64,000 nt of DNA from Rhodothermales bacterium (GCA_017643395.1 JAEPNP010000002.1:102290-166289), one strand, 5' to 3'. Shown: positions 20,715 to 29,444, counted from the stretch's first letter. Program-made: numbers and translations. Notes: generated by a model from the letters alone, not told the origin.

Positions 20715-21125
20715 ATGGCAGGCATCGACTTTTCGACTGATCGCAAGCCGCTGATGAGCTTTGCGCAGGCCGGTCTCGCCGACATCGTGCTGCTGCTGCT
20801 CATCTTCTTCCTGCTTACTTCCAGTTTCATCCCGCAGTTCGGGATCCGGGTGAATCTTCCGGAGACCAGCGCGCAGGCCCCGAGTGACCCGGTCTACGTG
20901 AGCGTGGCCATCACGGCCGATGGGGCTTTCTACGTGGAGCAGAACCGTGTGCCGCGGGAGGGCCTCCTGGACGCCGTGCAGAACGCCGTGGGAGACCGGT
21001 CCGCCATGCTGATCCGCGCAGATCGCGATGCGACAGTGGATCAGTTCGCGACCGTGGCGAGCATTGCCCAGGCGTTGAACCTGAGGGTGCAGATGGCGAG
21101 CGAGCGGGCCGGGCGAAGGCGGTAG
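20715..21125 (+). CDS. exbD: ExbD/TolR biopolymer transport protein
   Basis: A 136-residue single-pass protein. The membrane helix LADIVLLLLIFFLLTSSFI (residues ~18-36) includes the essential membrane Asp. The periplasmic domain has the ExbD/TolR fold (VYVSVAITADGAFYVEQNRVPREGLLDAV ... IRADRDATVDQFATVASIAQAL). It starts 1 nt after exbB. Its last codons (MASERAGRRR) are echoed by a 20-nt exact copy inside the downstream island, at 24488-24507. It faces comM convergently across that island. Confidence 0.9.
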   Translation: MAGIDFSTDRKPLMSFAQAGLADIVLLLLIFFLLTSSFIPQFGIRVNLPETSAQAPSDPVYVSVAITADGAFYVEQNRVPREGLLDAVQNAVGDRSAMLIRADRDATVDQFATVASIAQALNLRVQMASERAGRRR

Positions 21126-21178
21126 TGCGCTGGGGGCTCCGAGTGTCCTCCTTTTCCGACCAAGCGGGTGAGCCTGCT

Positions 21179-21727
21179 CTAGTTGGGCTCATCATGACCG
21201 CCCTCTCGCTGTCCGCGGATAAAGCCCGAGGCGGCTTCTAGACCCTTCCGAAGACTGGGCAGGTACGCATCGATGATGACGTGCTCCGAACTCACCTTCA
21301 AGATGACTGGAGTCTGGACAAAAGAGAGAGCCTCTTTGATCACATCCAGGCTATCGACAGCGTATGGCCCGGGGTAATTGGTGCCTGCAGCATAAATGTG
21401 GGCGAGATTCGTGTCGGTTGCCACAGTCAAGAAGGACGCTGGCAAGTCCGATCCATCGTCCACCGCCGCCATCGCGACGAGTATTTCGAATGCTCGGACG
21501 ACGCAGGAACTGCAGTCGGCCGCGCTTGTCACGAGAAGCACACTGCCACCGGGTACGTCAAAATCATCGAGGACGTCGACTTTCCTACCCAAAATGCTCT
21601 CGAGCATTAAGGCCTCTCGTCGACTCTCCGTACCGGTTGCCGGCGATCCGGAATTCGCCTCACAGCCGCTCAGGTAAACTATGGACGCGAGAAGCAGAAC
21701 AGAGCGCACCGACCGGGAGCCTCTCAT
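21179..21727 (-). CDS. Thioredoxin-like lipoprotein with CSSC motif
   Basis: A 182-residue predicted lipoprotein (signal ending YLSGC). The mature protein has VLLVTSAADCSSCVVRAFEILVAM, a strand followed by CxxC at a helix start as in thioredoxin-fold proteins. Further on, LTVATDTNLAHIYAAG and TPVILKVSSEHVIIDAY resemble the cis-Pro strand (here FVQTPVIL). The family cannot be named securely. It may be a thiol-disulfide or electron-carrying protein anchored in the periplasm. Its start overlaps the propeller gene by 4 nt, and it ends the operon that begins with the REC-AraC regulator and two Cys-rich peptides. Those peptides are obvious candidates for its substrates (inference). Confidence 0.65.
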   Translation of the reverse strand: MRGSRSVRSVLLLASIVYLSGCEANSGSPATGTESRREALMLESILGRKVDVLDDFDVPGGSVLLVTSAADCSSCVVRAFEILVAMAAVDDGSDLPASFLTVATDTNLAHIYAAGTNYPGPYAVDSLDVIKEALSFVQTPVILKVSSEHVIIDAYLPSLRKGLEAASGFIRGQREGGHDEPN

Positions 21728-22740
21728 TCCCCAGCTTCCAGTTCATACAGGTTGAGTGACCCCTCAACCGCGTCAAAGGCAAGAATATTGCCTGAGTCAA
21801 CCGCGAAGGCAGAAATGTATGCGTCAGTTCCTGCCCGGGTCTTTAGCCTGATCAACCTTTCGATAGTTAGTGACCCTCGATCGATTTCCAGGATACTCTC
21901 TGGTCGTCCATTCTCCCCATAAAACAACAGATACGCACGGTCTCCCTCGATACCCCCTGCGCGAAAAAACATCCCCGCTCGGGTGCGATCATAGTTGTCT
22001 CGATATTCCGTCGTAATTGTTTCGACACGCTTTTTGAAGAGCTCATGCTCCGAGAGGTCGAGTGTCGCGCGATGTCTGCCTTCCTCATCAAACGATTCGA
22101 CAATCGGTTGATAGCCGTAGGCCAGAATTATCGAGCCGTCAGAAGCCAATAGGGGGAGGCGGTCGTTCATTCTTCTACGCCGAGACTCCGTTGGGGCATC
22201 GTAACCTCCATTGGTCTCGGCGAAGGTGAACAGCAATTGGCCTCCAAGGTCGTAGAAGGAAGCTGCACCCTCTTCCTTTCGGGTGGACAGAAGCACACCG
22301 CGGGCGTCAGCTGCAAAACCAAAGGCGGTCACCGCTTCCGGAGCAGCGAACTCGGTCTCATACTCTCCCTGCCGACTGAAGACGTGGAAACGTCTTCCCC
22401 GCGAATCGTACGCAAGGACCCTATCGCCCGCGACAGCAACGCAGCCGGCCCCGTACACCTCGCCCGGGCCGGCTCCGGACCTACCGAAGGTTCGACTCAC
22501 CTCCAGTCCATCTGCTTCCAGAATCAGAAATCGATGGTTGCTGTAGTCAGAGGCGTAAAATTGCCCTCCTGCCGCCGTCAGGCACGTTACGCTGGCGAGA
22601 TAGGTGCCGTCCGACAGTTGATCTACTGTCGAAACCGGGGCTAAGCGGACGACTTCCGCTTCTTGTTCACCGCAGGCGCTGACACAAAGCACGACGGCGA
22701 CAAGTCCCCACCAAGGTCCCCATTGAGCCCTTTTTACCAC
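21724..22740 (-). CDS. 6-bladed beta-propeller lipoprotein
   Basis: A 338-residue protein with a lipoprotein signal (VAVVLCVSAC). Blade repeats read as in the Bacteroidota 6-bladed propeller/NHL-like family: GGQFYASDYSNHRFLILEADG, FGRSGAGPGEVYGAGCVAVAGDRVLAYDSRGRRFHVFSRQG, and later EIDRGSLTIERLIRL. The conserved R(S/T)GxGPGE loop follows blade one. Proteins of this class are surface or periplasmic and often sit next to small leader-type peptides. That is the case here, with two Cys-rich peptides 15 and 290 bases upstream. It overlaps the thioredoxin-like lipoprotein gene by 4 nt. The ligand is unknown. Confidence 0.78.
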   Translation of the reverse strand: MVKRAQWGPWWGLVAVVLCVSACGEQEAEVVRLAPVSTVDQLSDGTYLASVTCLTAAGGQFYASDYSNHRFLILEADGLEVSRTFGRSGAGPGEVYGAGCVAVAGDRVLAYDSRGRRFHVFSRQGEYETEFAAPEAVTAFGFAADARGVLLSTRKEEGAASFYDLGGQLLFTFAETNGGYDAPTESRRRRMNDRLPLLASDGSIILAYGYQPIVESFDEEGRHRATLDLSEHELFKKRVETITTEYRDNYDRTRAGMFFRAGGIEGDRAYLLFYGENGRPESILEIDRGSLTIERLIRLKTRAGTDAYISAFAVDSGNILAFDAVEGSLNLYELEAGE

Positions 22741-22755
22741 CTAAGCAACCGTCTT

Positions 22756-23007
22756 CTATTCGGGGTCAGCCTCGGGACACTGAACGACAAAGCCATCGCA
22801 CATTACGAAGTCCGCAATCGCAAGGCATTCGTCGTCTCCATAACACCCGACTCCCGCGACGCCGGGGTCGCAGTCGGGGCAGCCGATGCAGCTAGCATAC
22901 GCCTGACATGGCGCAGCCGCATTCGCCGGGGCGCCCGGCACGCCGAAAAAGCAAAGTGCAACCGCAAACCCGAGGGTCTTTATTGTTCTTGGAATTAGAT
23001 AAGTCAT
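22756..23007 (-). CDS. Small secreted Cys-rich peptide A (83 aa)
   Basis: The ATG at 23007 gives a clear signal peptide (TLGFAVALCFFGVPGAPANA) and a mature part of about 50 residues with eight cysteines. Their pattern ends in MCDGFVVQCPEADPE. A longer frame reaches 23154 but overlaps the neighbouring peptide gene. No named family is recognised. The arrangement (short secreted peptide, Cys-rich tail, next to a 6-bladed propeller) resembles NVEALA-type peptides of Bacteroidetes, but the NVEALA motif itself is missing. It lies 23 nt after peptide B and 15 nt before the propeller gene on the same strand. Its tail is similar to that of peptide B. Confidence 0.7.
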   Translation of the reverse strand: MTYLIPRTIKTLGFAVALCFFGVPGAPANAAAPCQAYASCIGCPDCDPGVAGVGCYGDDECLAIADFVMCDGFVVQCPEADPE

Positions 23008-23030
23008 TCGAGTTTCCCATTGGTTGTTCG

Positions 23031-23246
23031 CTAGACACATTCGGAATCGCATTCGAGCACGTAGTCGTCGCAGAGAATGCTCTCGTTTTGGGTTTGGCAC
23101 ATGTACAAGGCGATGCACGAGATCGGGATGCCGCATGCGCAGGACAATCCACACTGAACTTCAGCCGCATCTAGTGCGCGTGGCTGAGCAAATGCCATCG
23201 CGATCGCAACTACAAGTGTGCAGATCGCAGCTTTGACGTATCGCAT
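23031..23246 (-). CDS. Small secreted Cys-rich peptide B (71 aa)
   Basis: The ATG at 23246 is preceded by a near-perfect Shine-Dalgarno sequence, AGGAGGT (23257-23251), which fixes the start. An upstream extension to 23408 is therefore rejected. The signal peptide AAICTLVVAIAMAFAQPRALDA is followed by a mature part of about 42 residues with eight cysteines. It ends ILCDDYVLECDSECV. The C-D-[G/D]-[F/Y]-V-x-x-C tail is shared with peptide A, so the two are probably paralogues. Disulfide-rich mature peptides in the envelope would fit the thioredoxin-like lipoprotein of the same operon. Function unknown. Confidence 0.72.
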   Translation of the reverse strand: MRYVKAAICTLVVAIAMAFAQPRALDAAEVQCGLSCACGIPISCIALYMCQTQNESILCDDYVLECDSECV

Positions 23247-23250
23247 TATT

Positions 23251-23257
23251 ACCTCCT
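23251..23257 (-). promoter_or_regulatory. Strong Shine-Dalgarno of peptide B
   Basis: AGGAGGT on the minus strand lies 4 nt before the ATG at 23246. Few genes in this window have so complete a site, suggesting high translation of this peptide. Confidence 0.8.
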
Positions 23258-23367
23258 GTCCAAGCGATGGTTGGTTTGCATCAGGCCATGCGGCCCGATG
23301 TCCCTCCAAATCTAGATTTGGTGCAAAAGCGGAGACTGCCATTCCTGCAGGATTTGTCTGCGGATAA

Positions 23368-24246
23368 TCACACGGACGTTTTTGCGCTAGTCTGCGGTGC
23401 CTCCCCATCCGGGGAATCCGGACGAAAAAGGGACACCCATGCGGAAGTCAGGAGCGATTCCACGCCTTCCGAAGCGCAGAAACACTTTCGAAAGCCCGTC
23501 CATGCTGCCGCTTCGGAGAGCGGCATGCCTGTCTCCTCAACCAGCAGGCGCGCGCCTCGAACGCGATGGTAGCTGAGGTACCTGCGAGGTGTCATCCCCG
23601 CGTATCGCTTGAATCGACTCGGCAAACTTCGGCCATCTGCTCTGAACCCCGAGATCAATCCCCCGATGGTGAGGTCCTCATCCCAGACTCTCGTGTTTAT
23701 CGCAGTCAGTAGTTCCCTGACATCACCGGGCCAAGTGTCCTGAGACATCAAGAGCTTGGTTTGTGCGTATGCGGAAAGGACCTCGGCTGCTGCCGGACTC
23801 CGAGTCCCCCCGGCCGGTTCGCCAACATACTCCCGCAAGGCACTGCCGACCGATGGATAACACCGGCCCATGAACCAGCACTCTTCCCGTTGAACGGCGT
23901 CAATCGCTATCAATAGGTTGCCGAGGGGTTCGTCTTTGAGCATATACCCGGCAGCTCCGCTTTCTAAAGCCCCCCGAACCAGGGCTCTCTCTTTGAATCC
24001 GCTGTATGGAAGGACCTTGACTCGTTGTTCTAGTCCAGACAGTTGTTGGATCAGTTCGATGCCACATGGTTCGGGCATCGACATGTCGAGAATGATCAAC
24101 TTCGGCCTAAGAGCTTGCGCCAATCGCATTGTCTCAAGACCATCCTTGGCTTCACCCACCACGGTAATGCCTTGCGCAGCCCCCAGAACGCCGCGAAGTG
24201 CTTGCCGCATGAGAGGGTGGTCATCAGCGACTAGAATCTCAATCAT
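23368..24246 (-). CDS. Orphan response regulator: REC + AraC-type HTH
   Basis: A 292-residue protein from the ATG at 24246 (MIEILVADDHPLMRQ). The receiver domain (1-120) has the acidic pair ADDHP, phosphoacceptor Asp in IILDMSMPEP and the conserved Lys in GYMLKDEP. A linker of about 90 residues follows. The C-terminus has AraC-family features: FKRYAGMTPRRYLSYHRVRGARLLVEETGMPLSEAAAWTGF. After that Gly-Phe the reading frame degenerates. A +2 frame gives FLRFGRRGIAPDFRMG, which is what an AraC second helix-turn-helix should look like, so a frameshift near 23475-23490 is likely. No histidine kinase is nearby. It heads the peptide/propeller operon and has the 23-bp motif 114 bases upstream. Confidence 0.75.
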   Translation of the reverse strand: MIEILVADDHPLMRQALRGVLGAAQGITVVGEAKDGLETMRLAQALRPKLIILDMSMPEPCGIELIQQLSGLEQRVKVLPYSGFKERALVRGALESGAAGYMLKDEPLGNLLIAIDAVQREECWFMGRCYPSVGSALREYVGEPAGGTRSPAAAEVLSAYAQTKLLMSQDTWPGDVRELLTAINTRVWDEDLTIGGLISGFRADGRSLPSRFKRYAGMTPRRYLSYHRVRGARLLVEETGMPLSEAAAWTGFRKCFCASEGVESLLTSAWVSLFRPDSPDGEAPQTSAKTSV

Positions 24247-24359
24247 TTTGGCACATGGACCGGGAGGGTCGAGAACTTGCACCCGGTGGCGGGGTGCCAC
24301 TACATGAGTACCCGACTGTTGGGTACCCGCCTGGAAGCTTGGCTCTTCCAGGGGCAAGC

Positions 24360-24382
24360 GCAATAAGGTGAAACGACTATTC
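24360..24382. repeat. 23-bp island repeat, copy 1
   Basis: GCAATAAGGTGAAACGACTA followed by TTC. It differs at one position from copy 3 (29281-29303) and at several from copy 2 (25817-25839). It lies 114 bases upstream of the regulator gene and 30 bases before the comM-tail remnant. Confidence 0.8.
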
Positions 24383-24411
24383 TGGATCTGCCGCCAGGAG
24401 GCTTCCTGCTC

Positions 24412-24455
24412 CGGGAAACTGCAACCCTCACCCCAAGATGCCCTCGCCGCAGCCA
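24412..24455 (-). pseudogene. Remnant resembling the last codons of comM
   Basis: This stretch aligns in the same orientation with the 3' end of comM at 29449-29491. It shares GAAACTGCAAC and CCCCAAGATGC exactly and CGCAGC further on, with one single-base indel. Read on the minus strand it gives G-I-L-G then GLQFPG, against HLGEALQFRG in ComM. It is too short to encode anything and looks like a recombination scar. Confidence 0.6.
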
Positions 24456-24474
24456 CAGCCTTCCGGGCAGTGTC

Positions 24475-24507
24475 GCATGCAAGGCCAGCGAGCGGGCCGG
24501 GCGAAGA
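24475..24507 (+). pseudogene. Remnant resembling the last codons of exbD
   Basis: AGCGAGCGGGCCGGGCGAAG (24488-24507) is an exact 20-nt match to the 3' end of exbD (21099-21118). Weaker similarity lies just before it. It follows the comM-tail remnant by about 20 bases. Together they form a comM-tail/exbD-tail junction inside the island between the real exbD and comM. Confidence 0.6.
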
Positions 24508-24565
24508 GTTTCCGATGCGGGCCTGCGGTGGCTGAGCCGCCTACCTTCGACCAGTCCGGCCCAAC

Positions 24566-25699
24566 TCACTCGACGACGCGCACCACACGCACCTTGGGAT
24601 GCTCGGATTCGTCAATCAGATAGAACCTCCCGTTGTGGTAGCCTCGCGCCTCGATGGGAGCCTGAATCCCGGCGTAGTCGGGAAACTCCTCATGCGGAAA
24701 GACCAGCGTCTTCGCGACCACTTTGGCAATGGGGTCGAATACCTCTGCGACGATCCTTCGCGACTCGCCGATCCTGAGGAGGGAGAAGCTCCAGACAAGT
24801 CCGTCATCAGCCACGTGGAGGCCAATACTTTGGCTGTGAATGACCCCGGCCGAGTCTCCGAATCGAGACCGGAACATTACGGCCGAGTTTGGTGATGTCC
24901 TAGGGGCGACTAGTTCGAACGGCTCGCCTCGCTCCGCGCCCAATATGAGCTCTGGGGTTGCCCACCCGCCTGAAGGGTTTCGGACAAACATGTGGAGGCG
25001 TTCTGGAGAAAAGAACGGAGCGAAGAAGAGCGTGTCCGGCCCGGCCATGTCGAATGAGCCCGCATTTGCGGACTGCATGGTCCTGGTGAACAGATCTGAC
25101 GAGATCCCAAGCGAGTCCGCGTTACCGAAGGAGCCGACGAAATTGAGGTCCTCGTCGAACTCCCGAAAAAGGTCCTGATCAGTTTCGTTATAGGGCTCGG
25201 GACCAGTCAGAAACAGGTATCCCTTTCCGGGCACATGAGCAACCTGTTTTGGGGTTTCCAGCTGCGTCCGGTTCATCCTCGCGGTCAGCGGGTCGCCAGA
25301 ACTCAGCCTTGTGAACCTGCCGAAGACCTTGTCCGCGACAAGAACCTCCGTCCTCGACAGGGCAACCATACTGGTAATGTGACTGAACTCACCGGGAGCC
25401 GAGCCGCGACTGCCCAACGTGCGAAGGTGTTCTCCGTCTGACGAAAAAGACCGGATCTCGGAGCTAAGGTGGTCCGCTACAAATAACGTCCCGTCTCCCG
25501 CGACGGAAATCGTTCGGATGTCGCTGAACAGGTCTGCGTCGAGCGACGAGTCGTGCTTCCCTACGACTACTTCGGTAGCAAACCTCGCCTCGGTCTGGGA
25601 CCAGACCACTCCCGGTGCGCCGCTGCGCAAAACAGCGAGGATGGCCAATGCCCAGAGGCTCGCGGGCACATCTCCTCGACCGAGCGTCGCACTAGCCAC
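24566..25699 (-). CDS. Secreted 6-bladed beta-propeller protein
   Basis: A 377-residue exported protein with an N-terminal hydrophobic segment (SLWALAILAVLRSGAPGVVWSQ) and no obvious lipobox. The propeller signature is strong: DIRTISVAGDGTLFVADHLSSEIRSFSSDGEHLRTLGSRGSAPGEFSHITSMVALSRTEVLVADKVFGRFTRLS, with the G-R/S-x-G-x-x-P-G-E-F loop. It is the same family as the 21724-22740 product but only distantly similar. It is a single gene in its own block, with a copy of the 23-bp repeat 118 bases upstream. Likely a periplasmic or surface binding protein of unknown ligand. Confidence 0.75.
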   Translation of the reverse strand: MASATLGRGDVPASLWALAILAVLRSGAPGVVWSQTEARFATEVVVGKHDSSLDADLFSDIRTISVAGDGTLFVADHLSSEIRSFSSDGEHLRTLGSRGSAPGEFSHITSMVALSRTEVLVADKVFGRFTRLSSGDPLTARMNRTQLETPKQVAHVPGKGYLFLTGPEPYNETDQDLFREFDEDLNFVGSFGNADSLGISSDLFTRTMQSANAGSFDMAGPDTLFFAPFFSPERLHMFVRNPSGGWATPELILGAERGEPFELVAPRTSPNSAVMFRSRFGDSAGVIHSQSIGLHVADDGLVWSFSLLRIGESRRIVAEVFDPIAKVVAKTLVFPHEEFPDYAGIQAPIEARGYHNGRFYLIDESEHPKVRVVRVVE

Positions 25700-25816
25700 T
25701 TCTGAAGCGGTGGGTTGGGAACGTCGAGAGTGCGATGACCGTGATTCGGGGCCTCATACTTGGGCGGGAGATGGTGGAAGCGCAACGATCGCAAACTCCT
25801 GCATCTAGCGCGGCGG

Positions 25817-25839
25817 GGCAATGAGGTAGAATGACTATT
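25817..25839. repeat. 23-bp island repeat, copy 2
   Basis: GCAATGAGGTAGAATGACTA followed by TTC. This is the most divergent of the three copies. It lies 118 bases upstream of the propeller gene 24566-25699. Confidence 0.7.
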
Positions 25840-25877
25840 CGAGCCGAGAGCCAACGCCACACAGCGCAGAGGACGGC

Positions 25878-26918
25878 CTAGTTCTCGATAGCAGTCCAAT
25901 CAAAGTCTGAGATTCCGCTGGCGCCCGCGAGGTCGCGCGGCTCAAGAAGCTGAGCTAGGCTCCCCGTGTCCACGTCGTAGATCATGAGCACGGCCTCCTC
26001 GGCATCGTAGTCGGAGAGGCGGGAGCGATCGAACACCAGGGCACCGTTTGGGCCCCAGCGCGGTCTCCGGTCGAGGACCTCGTCGCCGGAGCGCGACACG
26101 AAATAAGCGTTCCCGTCGAGGTCGCTAACTCCGATTCTGACATTCGTTCCGGGCGCCTCCCATACCTCGAACGCGAGAAGTCGCCTGCCTGGGTTCCAGG
26201 CCGGGTAGAAAAGGCCACCCGCGCTGCCCGACAGACTGTCTGTCAGCGATCCCGTCGGGATGATTCCCATGATGTCTCCGCTCGCGTCGAGCAGGTGAAG
26301 GCGACTGAAGGTGGCGTCGTCCTCGTAGTTGCCTGCCACGAGGGTATCGACCCCGATGGCTGCAGTAACAATGATCGCCGCATCTCCGATTACGGCCACG
26401 GAGCTATCGGCCAGCGAGTAGAATTTCTGCACGGGCCGCCCACTCACGCCCACCCGCTGCATGAAATAGAACCCGTCTTCTTTATCAGTCCAGACGACGG
26501 TCTCCATCTCCGGCAGCAGCGGCCCGAGATCTCTTGTTCTAATCGGAGAAACCGACCCGGCCGCCAGGTCGGCCAGCATCGCCTGGCCTGCGTAGTCGAC
26601 ACCGTCCATTCCAGCGAAAACCACCATTCTCCCGGAAGGAGAAACTTTGCTCCCTCGGAAGGAGCCATTGGCGGGCGATATGGCTCTTGCGGTCGTGAGC
26701 GAATCAAATGGTGCGACGCGAATCGACAAGCGGCCCGAAGTGTCGCGAACACTATAGGTTGCCATGCCCGGGCCTTCCGGGGTGGGTGCAATGCTTTCCT
26801 CCAGTTGCCTGTCGCCGCTGTTGGCGTCGCATCCGGTCGAAAGTGGGAGCAGGAAGAGAAGTGCAAGGCGCCAGGCTGCCCCAAGTGCACCTCGGTAGAC
26901 AGCCTTATTCGACCACAT
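25878..26918 (-). CDS. TolB/WD40-like propeller lipoprotein
   Basis: A 346-residue lipoprotein. The ATG at 26918 gives a signal ending LLPLSTGC. The open frame continues to 27095 but that extension has no signal sequence and is rejected. The blades carry PD40/TolB-like features: SPSGRMVVFAGMDGVDYAGQAMLADLAAG, YPAWNPGRRLLAFEVWEAPGTNVRIGVSDLDG, RRPRWGPNGALVFDRSR. Such propellers are often periplasmic interaction modules. It is the third propeller gene in the island. The product is not a peptidase, since no catalytic domain follows. Confidence 0.7.
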   Translation of the reverse strand: MWSNKAVYRGALGAAWRLALLFLLPLSTGCDANSGDRQLEESIAPTPEGPGMATYSVRDTSGRLSIRVAPFDSLTTARAISPANGSFRGSKVSPSGRMVVFAGMDGVDYAGQAMLADLAAGSVSPIRTRDLGPLLPEMETVVWTDKEDGFYFMQRVGVSGRPVQKFYSLADSSVAVIGDAAIIVTAAIGVDTLVAGNYEDDATFSRLHLLDASGDIMGIIPTGSLTDSLSGSAGGLFYPAWNPGRRLLAFEVWEAPGTNVRIGVSDLDGNAYFVSRSGDEVLDRRPRWGPNGALVFDRSRLSDYDAEEAVLMIYDVDTGSLAQLLEPRDLAGASGISDFDWTAIEN

Positions 26919-27164
26919 GCCGCGACCGGGCAGGAAGTCGCGAGAGTCCGCCCCTTCTCCGACAACCGGAGGTCGGCCGATCAAGGCGACCCTCGAGCTC
27001 CTGAGTTCTTGCGTCGTAGGCTTCGTGTGCTCCGCGATTCCTAGGCACACGTCACCTCGCATATGTTTTGGTTGGGACGACCCGCTATCGGACAACTGTT
27101 ACTAGCCTAGGGACATGTCTCCCGCCTACAACAGGGCGCACCTTTAGGTCCCGGGTGCGGAGCC

Positions 27165-27338
27165 TCAGGCGTCCCAGTTGAGAGAGTGTACACCGTCGGT
27201 CAGGGTCCCGGATGCGAGCGTCATCACCTCGCGTCCCAGCATGTCGAATACGGTCACGGAGACCCTTTCGGCCCTAGATAGCTCGAATTCAATTGCGGTC
27301 GAACTCCGGAAGGGGGTGGAGAAAGCAATCGGCCTGGA
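27165..27338 (-). pseudogene. Fragment of a T9SS type-A C-terminal sorting domain
   Basis: Directly downstream of, and in frame with, the stop of the T9SS cargo gene are 57 codons. They read FSTPFRSSTAIEFELSRAER ... VSVTVFDMLGREVMTL ... GVHSLNWDA and then a stop. This is the classical first two-thirds of a type-A sorting domain (P-F-x-S-S-T-x-I-x-F-x-L and V-x-V-F-D-M-L-G-R-E-V). The final strand motif (SGVYFYRL type) is missing. It has no start codon context of its own, so it is a relic or an unread second sorting domain. Confidence 0.7.
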
Positions 27339-29195
27339 TCAACGCTGGACTACCAGCCCGACCGCGCATTGGTAAACTGACTGATGGCTCAGTCGAACAA
27401 AGTAGAGTCCGGCTGCGAGCGAATAGGCGTCGAGAACCAGAATGTGCTCGAGGTCTCCACCGAGGCGATTTAGGCCCATATCGTGTTTGCGTCCAAGCAC
27501 GTCCCAGACCTCGAGCTCTCCGCCAGCGGCTGGCGCCGCGAGATGCACAGTAATGGAGGTGTGTCCATCGGTGGGGTTGGGGGCCGGCGGCTGGATCTTG
27601 CATGCCGACCGAGGCCCGCTCGGCAGCCCATCCGAAGCAAGTGGGCCATGGTATTCGTAGGCACCCAAGTCAACTCCCGCCCCCTTGATTCGCTCTACGC
27701 CCGCGAGGTCGAAAGGCAGTTGCTCGTCGACCAGTTCGTCGTTGTCGAGGTCAGTGATGTCAGTGCCGATGAGTGCTGTGTTGCCCGCATCAACTCCGGG
27801 AGAATCGGCCGCGAGACGTAGCCCAAACTGGTCGGGCTCAGCCGAGGGCGCGAAGCGCGGGGACTGATCGAGGATGTTCGAACCCGTCGCGCCAGCCGGG
27901 AGGCCTCCTTGAACCAAGCTACTTTGCACGACAAGACTAGATGCGTCTCGAACGACCACTCCGTTGCTGGGCCCCTCGTGCCCCCAGATAATGCTGTTGG
28001 CAATCCGAACATTGGAGGTAGATACCATTAGGGCGTGAGCGTTGACGCCTATGTTGTCGACAACCGTTGCTTGCGTCAGGTCCAGCCCTGCCTGCTCGAT
28101 CACGCCGATAGCTCCAGGTCTCTCGCGGTTTGGCACGACGATTTCGTTGTCCTTGAACAAGCTGTTGTGAACCGCGGCTGACGTCATTTCAACAAGGAGA
28201 CCCGCCGAGCCCTCGCTCCCGGATTCGTTGCCAACAAATCTGGCGTTGACCATCGCGATTGCATGAAAAGCGTGCCAGTCACCGCCCCCGGTCAAACATG
28301 CACCGCCCCCTGTGTCCTCGGAGGCGTTTCCGCGGAAGAACACATCGGTGAGCTGAGCCATGAATGGGAAAGCAAGTCCAGGCTGGCTCGGAACTTGTAG
28401 CCAAAGACCACCACCGCACCCTCCGGTCCTGTTGTCTGCGACGGTGACCCGGCGAAACTCTACGGGGTTGGGGGGGGCGGGAGCTTCGAGCGCATTGAAG
28501 CTCACTGCGATGCCGCCGCCCACTCCCCGACGCCCGACCCCGGATCTGTTCTCCCGTACAGTTGAATCCCTCAAATCGAGCGTGCCAAAGGCAGCGATAC
28601 CCCCTCCCCAGCCCCCCGCGTAGTTGCGTTCTACGGTGACCCGCACCAGCGAGGCGTGGGCTCCGGATTCGATCCTTATACCGCCCCCGTCACCCGGCTG
28701 CGCCACGGCCCTTCCGCCAGTGACTGTAACACCATCCAAGGTAGGTGCCTCCGTCCGGAACGAGCTCGACACCACGACCACGTTGTTCGAGTTGTCCTCA
28801 GTGAACGTATCCCCTACAGTTAGGGTGTCAGGGTCGTTTCCGGCCAGGTCCCCTGAGAGTATGGTCGGGTGGGCTTGCCAGTCACGTTCCTCTCGCGACG
28901 ATTCGCTCCCACTGAAACCTCCATAGACGGCGATCGGCACAGCCAGGTCGAATGAAGCCGATCTGTCACCTACCGTGACAAGTGCCCCGACATCGGGCGT
29001 ATACACCCCCTCGGCAACCCAAACTTCGGTTCCAGCTCGCCCCACCAGGAGAGCGTCCCGCAACGAGACATAAGCATCCGCCCACGAGGAACCGTCATTT
29101 GTTCCGTTGGCGTCGGCATCCACAAAAATCACGGTCTGCCCCTGACTCGGGCTGGCCGCAACGACCAGCAGCAGCACCACGATCCGAATGTACAT
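27339..29195 (-). CDS. Secreted right-handed beta-helix protein with T9SS sorting domain
   Basis: A 618-residue protein. The ATG at 29195 is preceded by GAGGAGGGAGAGT, a strong ribosome site, and gives the signal peptide MYIRIVVLLLVVAASPSQGQ. The N-terminal VDADANGTNDGSSWADAYVSLRDAL is the start seen in choice-of-anchor/DUF1565 parallel beta-helix proteins. Repeated LDGVTVTGG, GGGIRIESGAHASLVRVTVERN and GGGIAAFGTLDLRDSTVREN units form the helix. A SPGVDAGN motif marks its end. The last 80 residues are a type-A T9SS sorting domain (APNPTDGHTSITVHL, LEVWDVLGR, LAAGLYFVRLS). Probably a cell-surface carbohydrate-binding or adhesin-like protein with no visible catalytic site. Confidence 0.85.
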   Translation of the reverse strand: MYIRIVVLLLVVAASPSQGQTVIFVDADANGTNDGSSWADAYVSLRDALLVGRAGTEVWVAEGVYTPDVGALVTVGDRSASFDLAVPIAVYGGFSGSESSREERDWQAHPTILSGDLAGNDPDTLTVGDTFTEDNSNNVVVVSSSFRTEAPTLDGVTVTGGRAVAQPGDGGGIRIESGAHASLVRVTVERNYAGGWGGGIAAFGTLDLRDSTVRENRSGVGRRGVGGGIAVSFNALEAPAPPNPVEFRRVTVADNRTGGCGGGLWLQVPSQPGLAFPFMAQLTDVFFRGNASEDTGGGACLTGGGDWHAFHAIAMVNARFVGNESGSEGSAGLLVEMTSAAVHNSLFKDNEIVVPNRERPGAIGVIEQAGLDLTQATVVDNIGVNAHALMVSTSNVRIANSIIWGHEGPSNGVVVRDASSLVVQSSLVQGGLPAGATGSNILDQSPRFAPSAEPDQFGLRLAADSPGVDAGNTALIGTDITDLDNDELVDEQLPFDLAGVERIKGAGVDLGAYEYHGPLASDGLPSGPRSACKIQPPAPNPTDGHTSITVHLAAPAAGGELEVWDVLGRKHDMGLNRLGGDLEHILVLDAYSLAAGLYFVRLSHQSVYQCAVGLVVQR

Positions 29196-29280
29196 ACTCT
29201 CCCTCCTCGGACGTACTGGCGAATGATTTCGAGGAAGCCGTTCTATCGGCTCCAACAAGGTGAGACTCTCCACGCTGAGT

Positions 29281-29303
29281 GCAATAAGGCGAAACGACTA
29301 TTC
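29281..29303. repeat. 23-bp island repeat, copy 3
   Basis: GCAATAAGGCGAAACGACTA followed by TTC. It lies 86 bases upstream of the T9SS cargo gene and about 145 bases before the comM 3' end. Confidence 0.8.
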
Positions 29304-29444
29304 GACTCGCACCTAGACGCCAATCGGGCGGCAGCTCAGTGCCCTCCCGTAAAGCGCTGGAAGTAGGGCCACGGCTCTACACTTCATGAGACCATTCTAG
29401 CTCGGACGTCCAGCGGAGGCAACGAGATGACTGGAAAGCCCCCC

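Follow-up and report, generated by a model that had tools for sequence, protein, structure and literature searches.

Five adjacent genes in a 64,000-nucleotide stretch of DNA from a Rhodothermales bacterium (the whole stretch is hereafter the window) form, as judged by gene order across genomes, a real and recurring peptide system, in which two small Cys-rich peptides are encoded together with a regulator, a propeller lipoprotein, and a thioredoxin (Trx)-like lipoprotein. We propose, at roughly even odds, that this cassette was acquired horizontally and works as a regulated module, in which small disulfide-rich peptides are exported, a thiol oxidoreductase is dedicated to them, and a propeller carries or receives them. 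Bacteroidota genomes often encode 6-bladed propeller lipoproteins and short peptides for export, and we know of no function for either. Because the compact, mobile cassette groups both with a thiol oxidoreductase and a regulatory gene, their function becomes testable. The literature searched mentions neither NVEALA nor DUF5128 and has nothing on the present gene set.

All five genes lie on the minus strand with the regulator first, separated by 121, 23, and 15 nt and then a 4-nt overlap; the coordinates agree with the preliminary description on each of these points. A REC-AraC regulator (23368–24246; ATG start) precedes pepA (23031–23246), which has an AGGAGG ribosome site and encodes a 71-residue exported peptide, and pepB (22756–23007), which encodes an exported peptide of 83 residues. 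These are followed by the propeller lipoprotein (21724–22740; GTG start, lipobox VSAC) and the Trx-like lipoprotein (21179–21727; lipobox LSGC, with DCSSC and QTP motifs). A scan of the five genes found no terminator-like site inside the predicted operon. Neither Pfam (no significant match) nor NCBIfam (curated cut-offs) assigns pepA, pepB, the propeller, or the Trx-like lipoprotein to a family.

Both peptides carry a Sec-type signal and have eight Cys in the mature part. Their sequences, which end alike in CDG/CDD..C, can be aligned, and peptides from other genomes fit the same alignment (A1). A profile made from this alignment recovers pepA at 4.6e-16, plus relatives in eight other genomes, and has matches in 9 of the 114 Rhodothermales genomes; against the PDB it gives a chance match only (E 3.8). 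Of 31 peptides, 28 have an even number of Cys beyond the signal (nominal binomial 2e-6, for peptides that are related and not independent). The sequences give good support for export, through the signal peptides, and for disulfide bonding, through the even Cys counts. PepA is acidic, as are all the peptides compared (31/31, net charge −2 to −12), and it might be thought that peptides so rich in Cys and Asp/Glu capture metal ions in the envelope for the propeller to collect. We regard metal handling as improbable: in an oxidising compartment, Cys counts that are nearly always even favour disulfides, and the island that carries the cassette encodes no metal transporter.

The structure of the propeller was predicted confidently by AlphaFold from nine sequences (pLDDT 80.7), and the best Foldseek matches to the model are NHL domains (E ~1e-14), so that the fold is closest to 6-bladed NHL domains. 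At curated cut-offs the NHL profile does not recognise the protein (13.1 bits vs 20 required); one relative scores slightly below the PF17170 cut-off. The Trx-like lipoprotein has the CxxC active site and the cis-Pro motif of thioredoxin-fold oxidoreductases, and the DCxxC and the TP at the cis-Pro place are invariant in five divergent homologues (alignment A4). A PDB sequence search with its profile returned a sole match (E 0.014), to a thioredoxin oxidoreductase in which both motifs line up. The order of strands and helices fits a thioredoxin fold; the AlphaFold model, made from two sequences, is of low confidence (pLDDT 36). The second active-site Cys has been lost in the Trx-like proteins of family f13 and of the sister species G001; therefore, a simple CxxC oxidase role is not general. 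Homologues that keep the first Cys only, at L061, L062, L065, L124, L127, and L195, adjoin peptides with four to six Cys.

A Cys-rich small subunit, a propeller, and a MauD-type thioredoxin helper are also encoded in the mau and qhp operons. Three matching kinds of parts in one operon could indicate an enzyme of the envelope whose small subunit is cross-linked, resembling methylamine or quinohemoprotein amine dehydrogenase. Against this, neither pepA nor pepB contains Trp, and thus the conserved residues of a TTQ or CTQ cofactor are missing; the propeller is closest to 6-bladed NHL domains; the island encodes neither a haem subunit nor a modifying enzyme; and the length and Cys number of the peptides vary. 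We consider such an enzyme very unlikely.

Is the regulator a functional part of the cassette? Pfam recognises its Response_reg (3e-21) and HTH_18 (3.5e-8) domains, and the receiver is complete, with residues D8, D9, the phospho-acceptor D54, S82, and K104 all found in place by reading. The C-terminal ~30 residues (window 23368–23470) are probably off-frame by 1 nt, affecting the second HTH: after AAAWTGF, an alternative frame reads ESVSALRKAWNRS followed by a stop, which resembles the ends of a paralogue and of other AraC proteins. This probable frameshift may mean that regulation is altered in the strain, or it may be an assembly error. A search with the C-terminal half of the regulator led to the paralogue, which sits in another cassette of this genome (contig G000:C1; locus L194, 5332–7488) with the order REC-AraC, peptide (6 Cys), propeller.

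Upstream of the regulator, at a distance of about 114 nt, the preliminary description had placed a repeated 23-bp element, and the element, GAATAGTCGTTTCACCTTATTGC, is found there at 24360–24382 on the minus strand. The genome holds seven copies with at most three mismatches, vs none of the reversed control pattern; two further copies in the window lie at 25818–25840 and 29281–29303. The majority are upstream of genes in the same orientation, mainly ones for exported proteins, and the element contains an imperfect dyad, AATAG..CTTATT. Among the genes so preceded are an operon with a Reg_prop histidine kinase (contig C3) and other propellers, including a propeller operon (C7). Conservation of the element does not extend to the family, and no copy stands before the paralogous cassette; it is therefore ruled out as a fixed element of the cassette. 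A perfect 16-bp palindrome, CCAAATCTAGATTTGG, at 23306–23321, 60–75 nt before pepA, is a possible operator; it was not seen ahead of the peptides at other loci.

In the sister species G002, and likewise in G010, a comM-like gene directly follows tolR, whereas in the window 8.3 kb intervene (21126–29444). This island consists of two modules: A, from 21126 to about 24410, which is the cassette with its five genes and upstream element, and B (24507–29444). The 3′ end of tolR, on the plus strand at 21095–21118, forms the left module boundary and is repeated at 24483–24506 with 23/24 identity (chance expectation 0.01). At the right boundary, a remnant junction on the plus strand (24411–24506) comprises the 3′ end of comM (about 24411–24453) and then that of tolR (24483–24506), with local scores of 50 and 43 vs a null maximum of 29 in 754 comparisons. 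Copies of both gene ends between the modules indicate two tandem inserts at one junction, suggesting that the tolR–comM junction is a recurrent site of recombination. An integrase-type attachment site was also considered for the tolR-end repeat. We prefer recombination at the junction, since the ends of both genes are contained in the middle copy and the island showed no integrase gene. The cassette has a GC content of 56.6%, with 64.3% in the left flank and 63.3% in the right, and its GC3 is also lower. This evidence shows that the five genes were gained together, as a unit, by what we take to be horizontal acquisition. The eight island proteins gave no match to PADLOC defence models, no Rfam element was found across the island, and the propeller and peptide were both absent from plasmid records.

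Other exported proteins are also encoded in the island, which could suggest that the five genes are chance neighbours, independent lipoprotein genes that came together in a variable region. This is very hard to reconcile with the recurrence of the same order in distant genomes, and we give it the least credence of the alternatives. A conserved neighbourhood in relatives, the check set beforehand, was found in several Rhodothermales families, and each of four queries (peptide, propeller, Trx-like protein, and AraC C-terminus) recovered such neighbourhoods separately; searches with pepA only and with the propeller only gave adjacent matches at two places in G100. The order peptide(s), propeller, Trx is found in four genomes (G033, G040, G090, and G100), and decayed versions are found in three more (G050, G071, and G084). 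Decayed cassettes at L053, L057, L058, L059, and L126 have truncated or frameshifted Trx genes and stop codons in the peptides. In one family (G089, G101, G075, G069, and G097), the order is Trx, peptide, propeller, and the Trx-like protein keeps its first Cys only. Trx-like profile matches occur in 17 of the 114 genomes, almost all of them adjoining such propellers. Going by isolate names, several of the carriers appear to be sponge-associated.

The regulator, too, is by its distribution part of the recurring set. In the sister species G001, a Trx-like, peptide, and propeller set faces a REC-AraC gene, and two members of another family, G047 and G036, combine a regulator, peptide, propeller, and thioredoxin-fold protein. 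G047 has both AraC-peptide-peptide-propeller and AraC-peptide-propeller-Trx, while G036 has AraC-peptide-propeller, then a DsbA-like protein (Thioredoxin_4, 1.4e-22), a further propeller, and a redoxin. The kind of thioredoxin-fold gene thus varies by locus, yet such a gene stays associated with the set, an indication that thiol chemistry is needed.

When propeller loci were chosen blind to peptides, a signal-bearing ORF of 45–110 residues with at least four Cys lay directly upstream of 16 of 51 propellers vs 1 of 120 other genes (Fisher p = 8e-9, a value that overstates independence, as the loci share ancestry, though the peptides are widely different in sequence). This enrichment also argues against chance neighbours. 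The downstream control window gave 3 of 51 and 2 of 120, respectively. Counting against the proposed module, 35 of the 51 propellers are without a detected peptide.

How might the parts work together? In the scheme that we propose, the REC-AraC protein would switch the operon on, and the peptides would traverse the inner membrane via Sec. The Trx-like lipoprotein would then oxidise or isomerise them in the periplasm, and the propeller lipoprotein would bind the folded peptides and carry, display, or sense them at the cell envelope. Of the overall reading in the preliminary description, the gene set is borne out as a recurring unit, regulator included, and both the export of the peptides and their disulfide bonding have good support in the sequence; linkage makes it plausible that the CxxC lipoprotein works on the peptides and that they are bound by the propeller. 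If the oxidoreductase does act on the peptides and the propeller does bind them, many orphan propellers would gain a role in carrying or receiving peptides.

A pair of cassette copies in G100, one with a truncated Trx gene, bears on what the peptides may do. Between the copies, the mature part of the first peptide has a dN/dS of 1.08 (dN 0.175), its signal 0.41 (dN 0.055), and the propeller 0.56 (dN 0.042); in this one pair, then, protein-level change is about four times faster in the mature peptide than in the propeller. Because the mature peptides change fast and the cassette is mobile, we think that the cassette more likely serves to interact with other cells, by signalling or competition, than to do housekeeping. 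Fast change in the mature part, together with mobility, patchy spread (9/114 genomes), and paired peptides, would also suit bacteriocins against which the propeller or the Trx-like lipoprotein protects the producer. Such antagonism with immunity seems to us unlikely, though more credible than metal handling, since each of the 31 peptides has a net negative charge, as most membrane-active bacteriocins do not, a dedicated exporter is lacking, and known families are unmatched. We retain exported peptides served by a thiol oxidoreductase and a propeller carrier or receiver as the preferred reading.

With which known systems, then, should the cassette be compared? Methylamine and quinohemoprotein amine dehydrogenase operons likewise encode a Cys-rich small exported polypeptide, a propeller, and a thioredoxin-like helper, but the window peptides are devoid of Trp, the propeller is NHL-type, and there is no redox cofactor machinery. 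The window regulator resembles REC-AraC response regulators in its receiver and AraC HTH, but is without a linked kinase, and in its G047 and G036 relatives the AraC part is present but no receiver domain is recognised. With TlpA/DsbA-type periplasmic thiol oxidoreductases, the Trx-like protein shares the CxxC, the cis-Pro-like TP, and a membrane or lipid anchor, which in the window protein is lipid. It differs from them in lacking a Pfam or NCBIfam family match; a clear DsbA-like member occupies the same kind of gene set in G036.

The closest parallel is with the Bacteroidaceae clusters in which small exported Cys peptides of the NVEALA type (PF14055) adjoin 6-bladed propeller lipoproteins (PF15869 and PF17170). 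The preliminary description had pointed to this neighbourhood, rightly, and the likeness extends further, as a CxxC lipoprotein of ~180 residues is present at four of the five NVEALA loci examined. There are also differences. The PF14055 profile matches neither pepA, pepB, and their relatives nor anything in their own genome, and the window peptides have no NVEALA motif; the Bacteroidaceae loci, in the stretch read, are without a linked AraC regulator, and some of them carry signal peptidase I, unlike the window cassette. The signal peptidase I genes lie at L129 (13835–14725) and L178 (15436–16278). Comparison of the window and NVEALA CxxC families by hhalign gave a probability of 10% (P 0.003), with homology unproven. 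The window cassette nevertheless has the architecture of the NVEALA-type clusters, an exported Cys peptide with a 6-bladed propeller and a CxxC lipoprotein, and is, as judged by that architecture, a Rhodothermales variant of a wider Bacteroidota theme and not a member. It is tempting to go further, and we think it somewhat short of an even bet that the NVEALA and REC-AraC types are branches of one undescribed, Bacteroidota-wide system of disulfide-rich peptides, each with a 6-bladed propeller as receptor or carrier and a thioredoxin-fold helper.
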